Origin: Gluconobacter potus
GTDB taxonomy: Bacteria > Pseudomonadota > Alphaproteobacteria > Acetobacterales > Acetobacteraceae
Length of the DNA: 64,000 nucleotides
Assembly (NCBI RefSeq): GCF_015244705.1
Contig: NZ_JABCQF010000001.1
Span: forward strand, 806,001-870,000
Direction of reading: 5' to 3'
Positions 20,463-27,702 of this stretch are shown piece by piece. Under the pieces are notes generated by a model. That model did not search any database. It was given only the letters and a program-made list of their open reading frames with translations, and was not told the DNA's origin. The position numbers and the translations under genes were made by a program. Each line of letters begins with the position of its first letter. Positions within the stretch are counted from its first letter, which is position 1.

Positions 20463-21446
20463 TCAGGGCAGCAATACGGCGGCACCGTCGAAACGGCCGT
20501 GCCGGAGGTCATCGAGGGCCTGATTGGCGTCCTTTAGGGCATAGGGGGTGTTGGTCACTTTGATGCCGACTTCCGGGGCGATTTTCAGGAATTCCAGACC
20601 GTCCTGACGGGTCAGGTTGGCGACGGAGACGATTTCGCGCTCTTCCCATAATGTGTCGTAGGAAAAGGCCGGGATCTCGCTCATGTGGATGCCGCCGCAC
20701 ACGACTTTTCCGCCTTTTCGGATGGCCTTGAGACCAGCGGGGAGCAGGGCGCCGACGGGGGCAAACAGGATGACGGCGTCTAGCGGTTCAGGCGGGAGTT
20801 CGTCCGAGCCGCCGGCCCAGACGGCACCGAGGGAGCGGGCGAAATCCTGTTTCTGCGTGTCGCCGGGGGACGTGAAGGCGTAGACGTTGCGGCCCTGCCA
20901 GCGCAGGACCTGCGTGATGATATGGGCGGCGGCACCAAAACCGTAGAGCCCGATCTTTTTGCCGTCCCCGGCCTTTTTCAGGCAGCGCCAGCCGATCAGC
21001 CCGGCGCAGAGCAGGGGGGCGAGATCCTTGTCTTCGCCCTTGTCGCCCATCGGGAAGGCGTAGCGGGCATCGGCGACTGTCATGGTCGCGTAGCCGCCAT
21101 TGCGGGTGAAGCCGGTGAAGAGGGGATGGTCGCAGAGATTTTCCATCCCGTGCGTGCAGTAATAGCAGTGCCCGCAGGTATGCCCCAGCCACGGCACGCC
21201 GACCCTCTCGCCCACCGACAGGCCGGTGACATTGCTGCCGAGCTTGTCGATCCGGCCGATGATTTCGTGGCCGGGGATGATGGGGAGGGTGGCGTGCGGG
21301 AGTTCGCCATCCACGACATGCAGGTCCGTCCGGCACACGCCGCAGGCGCCGATCCGGATGCGGATTTCATCGGGGCCGGGTTCGGGATCGGGGAGTTCGA
21401 CCCATTCCAGAGGGGTGTGATGGGCTTTGAGCTGCATGGCGAACAT
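20463..21446 (-). CDS. Zinc-dependent alcohol dehydrogenase family protein
   Basis: A 327-residue medium-chain dehydrogenase. The catalytic zinc is bound through CGVCRTDLH (Cys38) and GHE (59-61), and the structural zinc by four Cys in CGHCYYCTHGMENLC (91, 94, 97, 105). The nucleotide fold contains GLYGFGAAAHI. The ATG at 21446 has GGAG eight bases upstream. It is the last gene of pntA1-pntA2-pntB-adh-adh, 25 bases after the previous dehydrogenase, which suggests a cytoplasmic reductase balancing NAD(P)H. The substrate is not known from sequence. Confidence 0.88.
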   Translation of the reverse strand: MFAMQLKAHHTPLEWVELPDPEPGPDEIRIRIGACGVCRTDLHVVDGELPHATLPIIPGHEIIGRIDKLGSNVTGLSVGERVGVPWLGHTCGHCYYCTHGMENLCDHPLFTGFTRNGGYATMTVADARYAFPMGDKGEDKDLAPLLCAGLIGWRCLKKAGDGKKIGLYGFGAAAHIITQVLRWQGRNVYAFTSPGDTQKQDFARSLGAVWAGGSDELPPEPLDAVILFAPVGALLPAGLKAIRKGGKVVCGGIHMSEIPAFSYDTLWEEREIVSVANLTRQDGLEFLKIAPEVGIKVTNTPYALKDANQALDDLRHGRFDGAAVLLP

Positions 21447-21471
21447 GGCGTGTTCTCCTGTGGCTTGTAGT

Positions 21472-22503
21472 TCAGGACCGGAAGTCGAGCACTGTCCGGC
21501 CTTCGAGGCGACCATTCTGCAGATCGTCGAAGATCGTATTGATGTTTTCAAGTTTTCCAGGGGTGACGACGGATTTGACCTTGCCGCGGGCGAAGAAATC
21601 CATGGCTTCGATCATGTCCAGCCGTGTGCCGACAATGGAGCCGCGGATGGTGGTGCCGTTCATGACCATGTCGAAGATCGAGACGGGGAAATCGCCGGGC
21701 GGCAGTCCGTTCAGCACGATGGTGCCGCCGCGCCGGGCATAGCCCATGGCCTGCGAAAACGCCGTCCGTCCGACAGCGGTGACGAGGGCGCCATGTGCGC
21801 CGCCGATTTGCTGCTGGATGAATTTTGCAGGATCGGTGTCCTTGGCGTTGACGGTCAGGGATGCGCCGAGCTTCTTGGCCGTGGCGAGTTTCTCGTCGTC
21901 GATATCCACGGCGACGACATTCATGCCCATGGCGATGGCATACTGCACGGCCATCTGGCCGAGGCCGCCGACGCCCGAAATCGCGACCCATTGACCGGGG
22001 CGGGCCTCGGTCATTTTCAGGCCCTTGTAGACTGTCAGGCCCGCGCACAGGACAGGAGCGGTCTGGAGCGGGTCGATGGTCGAAGGCAGGTGCGCGACGT
22101 AATTGGGGTCGGCCACGACATATTCCGCGAAGCAGCCATTGACGGTGTAGCCGGTGTCGTCCTGCTTTTCGCAGAGGGTTTCCCAGCCACCCAGACAGTG
22201 TTCGCAGTGGCCGCAGGCGGAATAGAGCCAGGGCACGCCCACGACATCGCCAACCTTGACGAAATTATCGACCTGACTGCCGACGGCGACGATATGGCCC
22301 ACACCTTCGTGGCCGGGAATGAACGGCGGGTTGGGCTTGGAGGGCCAGTCCCCGCGCGCTGCGTGCAGGTCGGTGTGGCAGACGCCGCAGGTATCGACCT
22401 TCACGAGGATCTGGTTGGGGCGGACGTCCGGGATGGGCAGCCGCTCGATAGTGAGCGGCTTGCCGAATTCACGGACGACGGCGGCGAGCATTGTATCAGC
22501 CAT
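21472..22503 (-). CDS. adhP: NAD-type zinc alcohol dehydrogenase, AdhP-like
   Basis: A 343-residue medium-chain alcohol dehydrogenase close in pattern to AdhP. Catalytic zinc ligands are in CGVCHTDLH (Cys42) and GHE (64-66), structural zinc ligands are Cys97, 100, 103 and 111, and the coenzyme loop is GVGGLGQMA (about 172-180). The acidic end of the second strand, VVAVDIDDEKL, favours NAD over NADP. The ATG at 22503 follows AAGGAA. It lies directly downstream of pntB, so cytoplasmic alcohol/aldehyde interconversion is probably tied to transhydrogenase activity. Confidence 0.9.
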   Translation of the reverse strand: MADTMLAAVVREFGKPLTIERLPIPDVRPNQILVKVDTCGVCHTDLHAARGDWPSKPNPPFIPGHEGVGHIVAVGSQVDNFVKVGDVVGVPWLYSACGHCEHCLGGWETLCEKQDDTGYTVNGCFAEYVVADPNYVAHLPSTIDPLQTAPVLCAGLTVYKGLKMTEARPGQWVAISGVGGLGQMAVQYAIAMGMNVVAVDIDDEKLATAKKLGASLTVNAKDTDPAKFIQQQIGGAHGALVTAVGRTAFSQAMGYARRGGTIVLNGLPPGDFPVSIFDMVMNGTTIRGSIVGTRLDMIEAMDFFARGKVKSVVTPGKLENINTIFDDLQNGRLEGRTVLDFRS

Positions 22504-22522
22504 TGGGAAGGTTCCTTCTGGA

Positions 22523-23944
22523 TTACGAGGCGGAGAGGCCCTTGACGGCCTCCACCATCTTGGAGAGCACGGCCTGCGCATCCCCGAAGACCATGGCGCA
22601 GTTGTCCTGGAAGAACAGCGGGTTCTGGACGGCGGAGTAGCCCATGCCCATGCCGCGCTTGATGACGAAGACCTGACGGGCCTTGTCGGCATTCAGGATC
22701 GGCATGCCGTAGATCGGGGAGGACTTGTCCGTCCGGGCGGAGGGGTTCACCACGTCGTTGGCGCCGATGACGAGGGCGACGTCAGTATCGGCGAAGCTGT
22801 CGTTGATGTCGTCCATGTCGTAGATCATGTCGTACGGCACGCCGGCTTCGGCGAGCAGCACGTTCATGTGGCCCGGCATGCGACCGGCGACCGGGTGGAT
22901 TGCGAATTTCACGTCCACGCCCGCGGCCTGAAGCAGTTTGACGAACTCGTAGAGCTTGCCCTGGGCCTGTGCGACGGCGAGGCCATAGCCCGGCACGATG
23001 ATGACCGTGGAGGCATAGCGCATCGTGGTCGCGGCATCGCTGGCGCTGACGGATTTGGCTTCCTTCTGCGGGCCGCTGGCGGCGGCAGCGGTGGCTTCAC
23101 CGAAATTGCTGAACAGGACGTTGGTGATGGAGCGGTTCATGCCCTTGGCCATCATGACCGTCAGCAGCGTACCGGCCGAACCCACGACCATACCGGCGAT
23201 CATCAGGGCCGGGTCGGCCATGACATAGCCTTCAAGACCCACGGCAAGGCCCGTGAAGGCGTTGTACAGCGAGATCACGACCGGCATGTCCGCACCGCCG
23301 ATGGGGACGGTCATGCAGATGCCGCAGAGCAGCGCGCCGATGAAGAACAGCAGGGCGAACAGGCCACCGCCGGGCTGATGGTACTGGGCGACGGCCATGA
23401 CGCCGAGCAGGATCGTCAGCATGAAGACGGCGGCATTGACGATGCGCTGTCCACCGAAGCGGATCGGCTTGTTCATGCGGCCATCGAGCTTGGCCCAGGC
23501 GATCAGCGAGCCGGAGAGCGACATGCTGCCAATCAGGCCACCTGCGACGGTGACGAGAAGCTGGCCAACGCCGGTGTCTTTCGGGCCGGTGAGGGCGATG
23601 ACGGACACGGCCGCGGCAGCACCGCCGCCCATGCCGTTGAAGAGGGCGACCATCTGCGGCATCGCGGTCATGGCGACGCTGCGGCCTTTCCAGCCAGCCC
23701 AGCCGCCACCGATGAGCAGTGCGAGCACGGCAAGGATGACGTTCACGACGATATGGGGTTGGGCTGCGTCGGAAACGCTGAAGATCTGAAGGAAGCTGGC
23801 CGCGACGACGAACAGCATGCCCCAGCCTGCGGTCACGATGCCCGAGACGGCCGTGACGGGGGAGGACATGCGTTTGAGGCCATAGACCAGCAGGCCGGAA
23901 GCGATCAGGCCGCTGAGGGCCACGATATAGGCGAGCAGGATCAT
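22523..23944 (-). CDS. pntB: NAD(P) transhydrogenase subunit beta
   Basis: A 473-residue membrane subunit. About nine hydrophobic segments (1-270) form the proton channel, followed by a C-terminal NADP-binding domain III (about 295-473, with IVPGYGLAVAQAQ, DDINDSFADTDVALVIGANDVVNP and VIKRGMGMGYSAV). Together with PntA1 and PntA2 it couples hydride transfer between NAD(H) and NADP(H) to the proton gradient. Its ATG overlaps the pntA2 stop by four bases. Confidence 0.96.
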   Translation of the reverse strand: MILLAYIVALSGLIASGLLVYGLKRMSSPVTAVSGIVTAGWGMLFVVAASFLQIFSVSDAAQPHIVVNVILAVLALLIGGGWAGWKGRSVAMTAMPQMVALFNGMGGGAAAAVSVIALTGPKDTGVGQLLVTVAGGLIGSMSLSGSLIAWAKLDGRMNKPIRFGGQRIVNAAVFMLTILLGVMAVAQYHQPGGGLFALLFFIGALLCGICMTVPIGGADMPVVISLYNAFTGLAVGLEGYVMADPALMIAGMVVGSAGTLLTVMMAKGMNRSITNVLFSNFGEATAAAASGPQKEAKSVSASDAATTMRYASTVIIVPGYGLAVAQAQGKLYEFVKLLQAAGVDVKFAIHPVAGRMPGHMNVLLAEAGVPYDMIYDMDDINDSFADTDVALVIGANDVVNPSARTDKSSPIYGMPILNADKARQVFVIKRGMGMGYSAVQNPLFFQDNCAMVFGDAQAVLSKMVEAVKGLSAS

Positions 23945-24276
23945 GATTTGGCTCCTGATGCCGGGGCCGGAGCGGATGCTGCGGGTTTTGTGCTGGGCTT
24001 GAACATGGCCAGCATCCGGTCGGTCACGACATAGCCGCCGACTACGTTGCCGGCGCCGAGCATGACGCCCAGAAAGCCGACGACCTGCTCCAGAACGGAA
24101 GACGCGTTGAACAGTGCGCCGAGGGCGCCGACGACCACGATGCCGTGTACGAAGTTCGAGCCGGACATGAGCGGCGTGTGCAGGATGGAGGGGACGCGGC
24201 TGATGACCTCATAGCCCGTGAAAGCCGCGAGCATGAAGATGTACAGGGCGATGACGAAGGTCATTGCGGTGATCAT
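23941..24276 (-). CDS. pntA2: NAD(P) transhydrogenase subunit alpha part 2
   Basis: A 111-residue membrane protein with about three hydrophobic segments and an Ala/Pro/Ser-rich tail. It corresponds to the membrane part that in E. coli is the C-terminal end of PntA; the alpha subunit is split in most alphaproteobacteria. Conserved text includes GYEVISRVPSILHTPLMSGSN-type residues. It overlaps both neighbours by four bases. Confidence 0.95.
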   Translation of the reverse strand: MITAMTFVIALYIFMLAAFTGYEVISRVPSILHTPLMSGSNFVHGIVVVGALGALFNASSVLEQVVGFLGVMLGAGNVVGGYVVTDRMLAMFKPSTKPAASAPAPASGAKS

Positions 24277-25511
24277 TTTGCGGTCTCCTTGCCTGCGTCG
24301 TTTGCGGCGGGGCCAGTGGGCGCGGGAGTGGCAGCGGGTGCGATCACAGGCGGGGGGGCAGGCGCGGGCGGGGCTGGCGAATTCGGATCCACGGCGGTGC
24401 GGATGCCGTCATTCGTGATGGTGCCGCCATGCGTCAGCGCGGTGCCGGAGATGACCTCGTCGGTGAAATCCGGCGCCAGACCCTTGTCCTTGGTGATGAT
24501 CTGCTGGAGCAGATGCATGATGTTCTTGGAATAGAGTTCGCTGGCCTGCTCGGCGAGCATGGACGGGACGTTGACGGGGCCGACGATGGTCGTGGGGCCA
24601 ACCTGAACGGTCTGCCCGGCCTGTGTGCCTTCGCAGTTGCCGCCGCCTTCCGCGCCAAGGTCGATGATGACGGCGCCGGGCTTCATGGCCTTGATCTGTT
24701 CGGCATCGATCAGGCGGGGGGCGCGCTTGCCGGGGACGGCGGCCGTTGTGACGATCAGGTCCGAGCGGGCGATATGGTCGCTCAGCGCCTTGCGGACCTT
24801 CTGTTTCTCGTCATCCGTCAGTTCGCGGGCATAGCCGCCCTGACCGGTGGCATCGACGCCGGTATCGACGAATTTTGCGCCGAGCGACTGCGCCTCTTCC
24901 TTGCTCTCGGGGCGGACGTCATAGCCTTCAGTGATGGCACCTAGGCGCTTTGCGGTTGCCAGGGACTGAAGCCCGGCCACGCCGAGGCCCATGACCAGAA
25001 CCTGTGCGGCGCGCAGGGAACCTACGGCCGTGGTCATCATGGGCAGGATCTTGGGCATGTGCACTGCGCCCATCAGGACGGCGTAATAGCCCGCCAGCGT
25101 GGCCTGGCTGGAGAGGGCGTCCATAGCCTGTGCACGGGAAATGCGGGGCACCAGCTCCATGGCGAAGCAGGTGATCTTCCCATCCCGCAGGGCCTTCACC
25201 AGATCCGGATTGTTGCGGCCGTAGATGAAGGCAATGAGGATGGCGCCGGGCTTCATGGCCCTGACCGTTTCCAGCGTCGGCGGCTGGACGGCCAGGACGA
25301 TGTCGGCATCGGCCACCAGCGCGTTGCGGTCCGGCGAGAAGGTGACGTCCTTGTAGGTGCCGTCGGGATAGGACGATGCGACGCCTGCGCCCGTTTCCAT
25401 GGCGAAGGTGATGCCCAGCGGGGCCAGTTTCTCGGCGACCTGAGGAATGAGAGCGACGCGGCGTTCCCCGCCTTCGTCGCGTTCTTTCAGGACTGAAATC
25501 TTGACAGTCAT
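24273..25511 (-). CDS. pntA1: NAD(P) transhydrogenase subunit alpha part 1
   Basis: A 412-residue soluble NAD(H)-binding domain I, related to alanine dehydrogenase. Recognisable blocks are LKERDEGGERRVALIPQ near the N-terminus, VLVMGLGVAGLQSLATAKRLGA (Rossmann loop, about 170-190) and DLGAEGGGNCE. A Pro/Ala linker forms the C-terminus. The ATG at 25511 has AGGA ten bases upstream; a longer in-frame start is rejected because it adds no conserved residues. First gene of the five-gene operon. Confidence 0.95.
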   Translation of the reverse strand: MTVKISVLKERDEGGERRVALIPQVAEKLAPLGITFAMETGAGVASSYPDGTYKDVTFSPDRNALVADADIVLAVQPPTLETVRAMKPGAILIAFIYGRNNPDLVKALRDGKITCFAMELVPRISRAQAMDALSSQATLAGYYAVLMGAVHMPKILPMMTTAVGSLRAAQVLVMGLGVAGLQSLATAKRLGAITEGYDVRPESKEEAQSLGAKFVDTGVDATGQGGYARELTDDEKQKVRKALSDHIARSDLIVTTAAVPGKRAPRLIDAEQIKAMKPGAVIIDLGAEGGGNCEGTQAGQTVQVGPTTIVGPVNVPSMLAEQASELYSKNIMHLLQQIITKDKGLAPDFTDEVISGTALTHGGTITNDGIRTAVDPNSPAPPAPAPPPVIAPAATPAPTGPAANDAGKETAK

Positions 25512-25626
25512 TGGTTGCGATCCTGTGTCTGTCGTCGGGCGCGGGCTGTCGCCGAAGGACAGGCTGAGCAAAGAGGGCCCGCGCCCCGTTCAGCGTCACC
25601 ATGACGCTTCTTCGGGGTGGAAACCA

Positions 25627-25640
25627 TTGATGGATATCAA
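25627..25640. promoter_or_regulatory. FNR-type binding site upstream of pntA1
   Basis: TTGAT-GGAT-ATCAA on the plus strand, a perfect match to the FNR/ANR consensus TTGAT-N4-ATCAA. Its centre is about 122 bases before the pntA1 start. It lies just downstream of a TATAAT for the same direction, so it may repress that promoter or activate a second one further downstream. The regulator is not encoded here. Confidence 0.7.
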
Positions 25641-25649
25641 AAGGGAGAA

Positions 25650-25655
25650 ATTATA
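25650..25655 (-). promoter_or_regulatory. Candidate -10 element of the pnt operon promoter
   Basis: A perfect TATAAT on the minus strand in an AT-rich pocket. The matching -35 window at 17-base spacing reads ATTACG, a weak element adjoining the first palindrome, as expected for a promoter controlled by a bound regulator. Confidence 0.5.
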
Positions 25656-25677
25656 TCTGTAAGGAAATTATTCGTAA

Positions 25678-25691
25678 TGACCGATCGGTCA
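25678..25691. promoter_or_regulatory. 14-bp palindrome 1, TetR-type operator candidate
   Basis: TGACCGATCGGTCA, a perfect palindrome (extended to 16 bp by flanking A and T), directly upstream of the weak -35 of the pnt promoter. Its sequence and size resemble operators of TetR-family repressors. An identical copy lies 34 bp away. Confidence 0.6.
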
Positions 25692-25711
25692 TTATGATTC
25701 TGTGACAGGGC

Positions 25712-25725
25712 TGACCGATCGGTCA
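25712..25725. promoter_or_regulatory. 14-bp palindrome 2, TetR-type operator candidate
   Basis: A second exact copy of TGACCGATCGGTCA, 34 bp centre-to-centre from the first, about three helical turns. The same-face spacing suggests paired dimers. It lies between the pnt and dnaG promoters and could act on either. Confidence 0.6.
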
Positions 25726-25854
25726 CTTTTCTGCGCTCCGTCGGGAAAGGGAGTATGGTGGATTTCGGGAAAAAGTTTCCTTTAAACAGAAGGGCTGGCG
25801 CTGTATGCGCTCGTGGACCTTCTTTCCAACCCGCATGAAAGGCTCTTCCTGCCC

Positions 25855-27702
25855 ATGGCAATTGATGCTGCTTTTCTCGACGAACTGCGGAACCGGACGC
25901 CGCTGCCGTCGCTGATCGGGCGGCGTAACAAGTTGGTGAGGTCCGGGCGGAACTGGAAAACCTGCTGTCCGTTCCATGGTGAGAAGACGCCGTCCTTCTA
26001 CATTTACGATGACCATTTCCATTGCTTCGGCTGCGGCGTGCACGGTGATGCCATCAGCTATGTGATGCAGAGCGAGGGGCGCAGCTTCCCTGAAGCCGTC
26101 GAACAGCTTGCGTCTGAGGCGGGACTCGAGGTTCCGAAAGCCGACCCGCGGACGGAAGCCCGTGCCCGGGAAGCGCAGTCGCTCGGTGACGTGCTCAATC
26201 TCGTGCAGGAGAGCTATCGCCGCCGGTTGTACCGCCCGGAAGGACGTGAGGGGCTGGCCTATCTGCGGGGGCGCGGGCTGACGGAAGAGACGATCGAGCG
26301 GTTCGGTCTGGGCTGGTCCGGCGACGGGCGGCAACTGCTGGACGAACTGCGACCGCATGGCGTGACGGTCGAGATGCTGATCCGCGCCGGGGTCATGCGC
26401 GTGGATGAGCAGGGCGCTCCGAAAGGGGAGCTGTTCTTCAATCGCGTGACGTTCCCGATCAGGGACCGGCGGGGGCGCATGATGTCCTTCGGCGCCCGGA
26501 CGCTCGGGGACGGGCAGCCCAAATATCTCAATGGCCCGGAGACGGCCCTGTTCTCCAAGCGCCGGACGCTGTTCAATCTCGACCTGGCACGCGAAGCCGT
26601 GCATCGCGGGGCTGATCTCGTGGTGGTCGAGGGCTATATGGACGTCATCGCCATGGATCAGGCGGGGTTTGGCGGGGCTGTGGCTCCTCTGGGCACGGCG
26701 ATGGGCGAGGAACAGCTTGAACTGTTGTGGCGCATGTCGCCGTCACCGATCCTGTGTCTCGATGGTGATGCGGCGGGGGCGCGGGCGGCGCTCCGGGTGT
26801 GTGAGGTTTCGTTGCCCCTTCTGTCGCCTGAGCGGACGATCCGGTTCTGCCGGCTGGACCCAAAGGATGATCCGGATAGTCTGATCCGTAGCCGGGGGCC
26901 TCGGGCCATGCAGGAGGCACTGTCCGGCGCGACGTCGATGGCGGAGGAACTGTTCGGGCTGCTGACGGTGGGACTGGTGGATCCGGGGCCGGACCAGCGG
27001 GCAGCTTTGCGTGAAAAGCTGGTGGCGCTGTCGCGGCTCATTCCGGACAAGGCTCTGGCATCGGAATATCGCAGCACGCTGCTGGACATGTTCTTTGCGC
27101 GCTTCCGGCGGAAGAAAACTTTCCAGCGCAAGGGGGGCGAGAGCCTGCCGCTCTCCACGCAGGCGCCCGGGGCAATGCGCGATGTGGAGTCGGGAAATCT
27201 GGAGCGGCTGAACATTATGACGGCGATGCTGCTTCACCATCCCGATATCCTTCCGGAAGTGGAACAGGCGTATAGCGGTCTGCATCTGACGCCTGAACTG
27301 GACCGTCTGCGTTCGGCGCTGCTGGACTGGTCCTGTCAGGAAGAGGAACAGGACGCTCTGAAGGAAGAGGGCTGCATGGCCTGGCTCGAGGAGCATGGGC
27401 TGGCAGATCTGGCGGGAAGGGTGAAAGGCGGCCCGTTGCCGCGCAGTGTGGGTGACGGGAAGGTCAAGGACGAGATCCTGAAGGTGGATGTCATTGAAAG
27501 CTGGTGGCATTTTTATGCCCTGGTCAATTTCCAGACCTTCGAGCGGACCCTGGAAGAGGACGTGACCCGGGCCGTGATTGAAGGGGACATGGAGCCTTTC
27601 GTGGATGAGAACGGGCAGAGCGGGCTTCGTTTTCCCAATGCACTCATGACCCGTCTTCGGGTTCGCGATGCCCTGAAAAGCGGAGAGAGGGTCGGAGAGT
27701 AA
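25855..27702 (+). CDS. dnaG: DNA primase
   Basis: A 615-residue replication primase. The N-terminal CHC2 zinc finger has Cys38, His41, Cys57 and Cys60 (CCPFHGEKTPSF and HFHCFGCG). The catalytic core follows (about 120-260), then the TOPRIM fold with VVVEGYMDVIAMDQAG (about 258-275) and CLDGDAAGARAA. The C-terminal third, which binds DnaB helicase, is variable. The ATG at 25855 has AAAGG upstream; an in-frame GTG 42 bases earlier is possible. Followed by rpoD, the usual arrangement of the macromolecular synthesis operon but without rpsU. Confidence 0.95.
   Translation: MAIDAAFLDELRNRTPLPSLIGRRNKLVRSGRNWKTCCPFHGEKTPSFYIYDDHFHCFGCGVHGDAISYVMQSEGRSFPEAVEQLASEAGLEVPKADPRTEARAREAQSLGDVLNLVQESYRRRLYRPEGREGLAYLRGRGLTEETIERFGLGWSGDGRQLLDELRPHGVTVEMLIRAGVMRVDEQGAPKGELFFNRVTFPIRDRRGRMMSFGARTLGDGQPKYLNGPETALFSKRRTLFNLDLAREAVHRGADLVVVEGYMDVIAMDQAGFGGAVAPLGTAMGEEQLELLWRMSPSPILCLDGDAAGARAALRVCEVSLPLLSPERTIRFCRLDPKDDPDSLIRSRGPRAMQEALSGATSMAEELFGLLTVGLVDPGPDQRAALREKLVALSRLIPDKALASEYRSTLLDMFFARFRRKKTFQRKGGESLPLSTQAPGAMRDVESGNLERLNIMTAMLLHHPDILPEVEQAYSGLHLTPELDRLRSALLDWSCQEEEQDALKEEGCMAWLEEHGLADLAGRVKGGPLPRSVGDGKVKDEILKVDVIESWWHFYALVNFQTFERTLEEDVTRAVIEGDMEPFVDENGQSGLRFPNALMTRLRVRDALKSGERVGE

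Follow-up and report, generated by a model that had tools for sequence, protein, structure and literature searches.

A conserved pair of palindromes of TetR-operator type upstream of the pnt operon in one group of Gluconobacter

The DNA analyzed here is a 64,000-nucleotide stretch of a Gluconobacter potus genome (C1:806001-870000, hereafter the window). Within it, pntA1, which encodes part 1 of the transhydrogenase alpha subunit, is followed by pntA2, pntB, and two alcohol dehydrogenase genes, one coding for an AdhP-type enzyme and the other for a zinc alcohol dehydrogenase family protein. The divergent neighbor of pntA1 is dnaG. A previous sequence-only reading of the window had named these neighbors correctly and had drawn attention to two identical 14-bp palindromes lying between pntA1 and dnaG. 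Both copies of the palindrome, TGACCGATCGGTCA, are indeed exact, with the first starting one base later than had been given (25678 instead of 25677). The distance of 34 bp assigned to them holds from start to start, and the intervening gap is 20 bp. Copy 1 forms the center of an 18-bp perfect palindrome, AATGACCGATCGGTCATT (25676-25693), and copy 2 extends to a 16-bp palindrome, CTGACCGATCGGTCAG, in 5 of the 8 genomes aligned over the pair. A consensus -10 element had also been proposed next to the palindromes. The corresponding TATAAT hexamer is present on the minus strand, but no sigma-70-type promoter passed a simple scan of positions 25540-25870. The hexamer is found in all 8 genomes that carry the palindromes, and none was seen within 420 bp upstream of pntA1 in the 6 genomes that have a full-length pntA1 but no palindromes. 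An additional element went unnoticed in the earlier reading: a perfect FNR box (TTGATN4ATCAA), the only one in the window, with its center 51 bp closer to pnt than that of copy 1. The coordinates of all features are collected in Table 1.

Table 1. Genes and promoter elements around the palindrome pair (positions in the window).
Feature	Position	Strand	Remarks
pntA1, transhydrogenase alpha subunit part 1	24273-25511	-	Start taken as the ATG at 25511 (MTVKIS), common to more distant relatives
Rest of the presumed operon (pntA2, pntB, two alcohol dehydrogenases)	20463-24276	-	Single-operon status presumed
pntA2	23941-24276	-	Presumed pnt operon
pntB	22523-23944	-	Presumed pnt operon
FNR box, perfect	25627-25640	.	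Presumed GoxR site; plus strand TTGATGGATATCAA, minus strand TTGATATCCATCAA
TATAAT	25650-25655	-	Putative -10 element (upstream pnt promoter); no -35 recognizable
Palindrome copy 1, pnt-proximal	25678-25691	.	No variable column among its 14 in 8 genomes
Palindrome copy 2, dnaG-proximal	25712-25725	.	Exact in 7 of 8 genomes; 1 mismatch in G019
dnaG, divergent neighbor	25855-27702	+	Start picked by eye

The exact 14-bp word occurs twice in the 3.42-Mb genome (67 contigs), both times at this locus, and a reversed control word does not occur in it. The genome-wide search proposed along with the earlier reading thus rules out that the palindrome is a frequent repeat unrelated to promoters. Perfect 14-bp palindromes as such are at chance level in the window (4 observed versus a simulated mean of 6.5); an identical pair of them appeared in none of 100 simulated 64-kb sequences. 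With two mismatches, 16 sites beyond the pair were detected in the genome, and of the 13 such sites examined, 3 fall outside long reading frames. These lie before emrA, between tilS- and ftsH-like genes, and before a uppP-like gene (tilS, ftsH, and uppP being named by eye), with the last having the appearance of a terminator stem. The looser core TGACCN4GGTCA was found 3-9 times per genome in 10 genomes, as compared with 2-9 times for its reversed control. Plasmid records contained no match to the intergenic stretch.

Among 100 genomes searched, 12 have an exact copy of the palindrome, and 9 of these belong to the 26 Gluconobacter genomes in the set. In 8 of the 9 the copy is located between pnt and dnaG, where it is invariably paired at 34 bp; records carrying the pair include those of G. 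oxydans, G. roseus, G. vitians, and G. aidae. A match to pntA1 was obtained in 15 of the 26 Gluconobacter genomes: at an identity of at least 94% in 8, at 84-86% in 6, and as a fragment with stops in G010. The pair with its 34-bp spacing accompanies all 8 genes of the first class, and for the 6 more distant full-length genes the best match to the word in the 420 bp upstream was at most 9 of 14 positions. Absence of the palindrome upstream of pnt in relatives had been named in advance as an outcome that would tell against an operator. It was seen in none of the 7 close relatives and in every one of the 6 more distant promoters. In the 8-genome alignment, variation affects a single one of the 28 palindrome columns. 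The spacer varies in 6 of its 20 columns, the dnaG side in 32 of 40, and the pnt side in 47 of 191. The palindromes are under selection at a promoter.

Two further observations were made in the course of these comparisons. Close relatives carry one or the other of two dissimilar versions of the stretch from copy 2 to dnaG (25726-25830), as if it had been exchanged by recombination, with L051 and L055 standing apart from the other aligned genomes in this respect. In addition, the word occurs once, as an exact copy, ahead of an MFS transporter gene in the genome G006 (L028:1501-1514), in which pntA1 was not matched; no TetR gene lies within 1.5 kb of this copy.

Which of the two divergent genes the palindromes belong to is indicated by G010, where pnt is a pseudogene (L064, ~1240-1580). 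In this genome 34 bp comprising one palindrome and the spacer are gone, a pattern that would result if the two copies had recombined with each other, and 2 positions of the surviving copy are changed. The FNR box is likewise altered, and the visible part of dnaG is 98.8% identical. Because the pair has collapsed and mutated along with a broken pnt while dnaG is alike, the palindromes belong to pnt, not dnaG. Their position between divergent genes, with the dnaG start ~130 bp from copy 2, is what one would expect if they served dnaG or both genes. However, the decay observed in G010 makes this very unlikely, as does the fact that 2 of the 8 aligned genomes (L051 and L055) keep the pair despite having a different sequence on the dnaG side.

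The form of the word points to a TetR-type operator. Its GACC-N4-GGTC core is like that of the NemR and RutR operators of E. coli, from which it differs in the flanking letters. For TTHB023 (PfmR), a TetR-family protein of Thermus thermophilus, the one paper among those searched that contains the exact word gives CTGACCGATCGGTCAG as the selected consensus, with a KD of 2 nM in vitro and values of 4.5 to 279 nM for point mutants of the site (PMC7022988). The short perfect dyad at pnt is the core of this measured optimum and, because the word plus one base per side equals that optimum, a TetR-type operator appears to be its best reading. A single occurrence of the 16-bp form, TTGACCGATCGGTCAA, was found in each of 2 genomes (G073 and G074) among 385 from the class, in both cases directly upstream of a TetR gene whose product looks RutR-like by eye. 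Exact single copies outside the genus numbered 5 in 3 genomes of the 100-genome search; of the 4 examined, 2 are not at a TetR gene (L020 and L029), and the 2 that are correspond to the two 16-bp-form sites. Tandem pairs were found at 13 loci outside Gluconobacter. A TetR gene is present in the sequence examined for 7 of these, directly at the pair in 4, and none was detected for the other 6 in the sequence examined, which for some ends near the pair. TetR genes at these loci were scored with a home-made profile built from domains found with PF00440, which was used instead of an earlier home-made full-length profile that had found 2 genes.

We consider it likely that the palindromes are an operator pair for a homodimeric TetR-family regulator that is encoded elsewhere in the chromosome and controls the pnt operon, although the 6 distant pnt promoters without palindromes and the lack of a linked TetR gene count against this. 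One dimer would bind each copy; at copy 1 it would overlie the -35 region of the upstream TATAAT promoter, and at copy 2 it would contribute additional occupancy. Since the 34-bp spacing amounts to ~3.2 helical turns, the copies are not on the same face of the DNA. The regulator would most likely be a repressor whose release by a small ligand raises pnt expression. It would provide an upper layer of control, with a second, more widely kept layer being formed by the FNR box and, presumably, the oxygen-responsive activator GoxR.

That the pair mediates repression rather than activation is something that we infer only, and an activator fits the same geometry. A class II activator has its seat at about the distance from a -10-like hexamer at which copy 1 is located (32 bp from center to center), and the TATAAT promoter, which has no -35 and yielded no sigma-70 promoter in the scan, would suit such a protein. 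On the other hand, TetR proteins are mostly repressors, and the presence of the FNR box hints at a main pnt start further downstream, such that activation through the palindromes seems unlikely. It is extremely improbable that the palindromes function at the RNA level, as hairpins or terminators. Copy 1 does fold better than 200 of 200 shuffled sequences on either strand, and a short T run follows copy 2 on the plus strand, but such folding is expected of any perfect palindrome and is weak for copy 2 (z -1.5 and -0.5). Moreover, both copies are upstream of the likely pnt starts, and copy 1 has no notable T run.

The proposal of a TetR-operator arrangement put forward in the sequence-only reading thus has much in its favor: the word has been measured as an optimal TetR site in Thermus, sits immediately before TetR genes in a number of unrelated bacteria, is conserved, and decays with pnt. 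The genome has 17 TetR_N hits (E up to 0.001), none of them inside the window, which bears out the statement that no TetR gene is nearby. Nor did the genome-wide search turn up the palindrome near a TetR gene; none of the 17 has the 14-bp word at fewer than 2 mismatches in its vicinity, so that the mark by which an autoregulated TetR is usually recognized is missing. An adjacent cognate gene sharing the site, a usual but non-defining trait of TetR operators, is likewise not seen at pnt. No candidate could be assigned as the dedicated repressor that had been envisaged, and its suggested redox or aldehyde ligand found no support beyond the enzymes of the operon. Among the literature matches listed, no title or abstract opening presents pnt of Gluconobacter as the target of a TetR regulator. 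G000, G003, G018, and G024 have four TetRs in common, with one being truncated in G024. A check of 20 chosen TetR loci in G002, G007, G017, and G019 showed that the same four are present there as well and hence in all 8 palindrome genomes. One of the four, which is RND-linked, carries in its own promoter a conserved palindrome of an unrelated kind (by eye). Two more of the four showed no such motif in their own promoters in four-genome alignments inspected by eye; a fifth TetR, L011, aligned too poorly to be included.

A TetR linked to emrAB is only a candidate for the regulator of the palindromes. It is somewhat unlikely that this AefR-type protein, encoded beside emrAB/nodT-like efflux genes (G000:C1:174201-174875), reads the 14-bp pnt word in addition to its own 19-bp site, TGACCGAnCnGnTCGGTCA. 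Two sites at its locus, one upstream of emrA and the other at tetR/nodT, have the exact 7-bp half-site TGACCGA/TCGGTCA (19-bp sites TGACCGAACCGRTCGGTCA at L065:9430-9448 and L065:12923-12941, or G000:C1:171429 and 174922), and it was the sole one of the 17 with half-sites at 0-1 mismatch in a free-spacing scan of the 500 bp upstream. It is also one of the four TetRs present in all 8 palindrome genomes and has a counterpart of 60% identity in G006, the genome with the word ahead of an MFS transporter gene. Furthermore, the promoter of an emr-type TetR in G050 (L162:2225-2271) combines the two words, with a site matching the 14-mer at 13/14 positions next to one that matches the 19-mer at 18/19. 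The spacing of the half-sites argues against this assignment. Among 30 homologue loci, 26 have half-sites with 5 central bases (0-1 mismatch), 4 have no site, and a spacing of 0 at up to 1 mismatch was detected at the G050 locus only; other spacings were encountered at 2 mismatches only, nearly always inside the same site. Five extra central bases are about half a helical turn, and the 19-bp site with a 5-bp center that characterizes the regulon of this TetR is not what is found at pnt. In addition, the 19-mer, which is present at up to 2 mismatches in 25 of 26 Gluconobacter genomes, and its TetR are also found in genomes whose pnt promoters have no palindromes. An efflux repressor that uses one half-site in two geometries (19 bp at the efflux genes and 14 bp at pnt), with the link having been added in one Gluconobacter group only, seems improbable to us. 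If true, it would mean that one ligand sensor couples the export of toxic compounds to NADPH/NADH exchange atop an oxygen-type activator. We are similarly doubtful that the regulator is another core TetR that does not control its own gene, for example one with an MftR-type C-terminal domain (G000:C3:38161-38787). All 8 palindrome genomes encode this protein (95-100% identity). It has no site of the palindrome type in its own promoter, and its recognition helix resembles, by eye, the one in the TetR encoded at the Mycolicibacterium pair. However, it is also found in genomes without pnt, occurs at 63-76% identity in the 6 that have no palindromes at pnt, and has no orthologue in G006, where the word is located elsewhere.

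Whatever binds the palindromes, the perfect FNR box means that an FNR-type activator is probably at work at the pnt promoter as well. GoxR is said, in a 2021 report by Schweikert, to activate the pnt operon of G. oxydans 621H, with both in vivo binding and regulator dependence. We take the box at 25627-25640 to be the GoxR site of pnt. Another source describes GoxR as the FNR-type regulator of G. oxydans (PMC9429829). The box is kept in all 14 full-length pntA1 promoters, at 10 of 10 positions in the 8 genomes with palindromes and at 9 of 10 in the 6 without, where it lies at about an equal distance from the gene. Because the palindromes are found in only 8 of these 14 promoters, FNR-type control is the more widely kept of the two, with the palindromes and the TATAAT hexamer being confined to one group.

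Our verdict is that the pair represents a known kind of element, a TetR-type operator pair, in a new place. Strains of Gluconobacter are used in industry as hosts for oxidations, and their NADPH/NADH balance is influenced by the transhydrogenase operon. The pnt promoter is already considered to be under FNR-type control; a further regulator encoded at a distance from it would offer a new handle on this balance, and the palindrome pair is an obvious bait for the protein. The locus also provides a clean example of an operator pair that has no neighboring regulator, is restricted to one group, and was lost with its target gene in one genome.

Comparison with known systems places the locus as follows. 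It shares a perfect FNR box with the GoxR/pnt system of G. oxydans 621H, but the palindromes are not explained by GoxR. The sites of the emrAB-linked AefR-type TetRs of the Acetobacteraceae have identical 7-bp half-sites, but they are 19 bp long and have 5 extra central bases. According to PMC7022988, the consensus of the Thermus protein SbtR (TTHA0167), TGACYrnnyRGTCA, fits the word, although the phylum and targets are different. The operator of TTHB023, as described in the same study (PMC7022988), likewise belongs to another phylum and to other targets, namely fatty acid biosynthesis genes. Its consensus encloses the entire 14-bp word, extended by a single base on either side, and two of its promoters carry two sites each.
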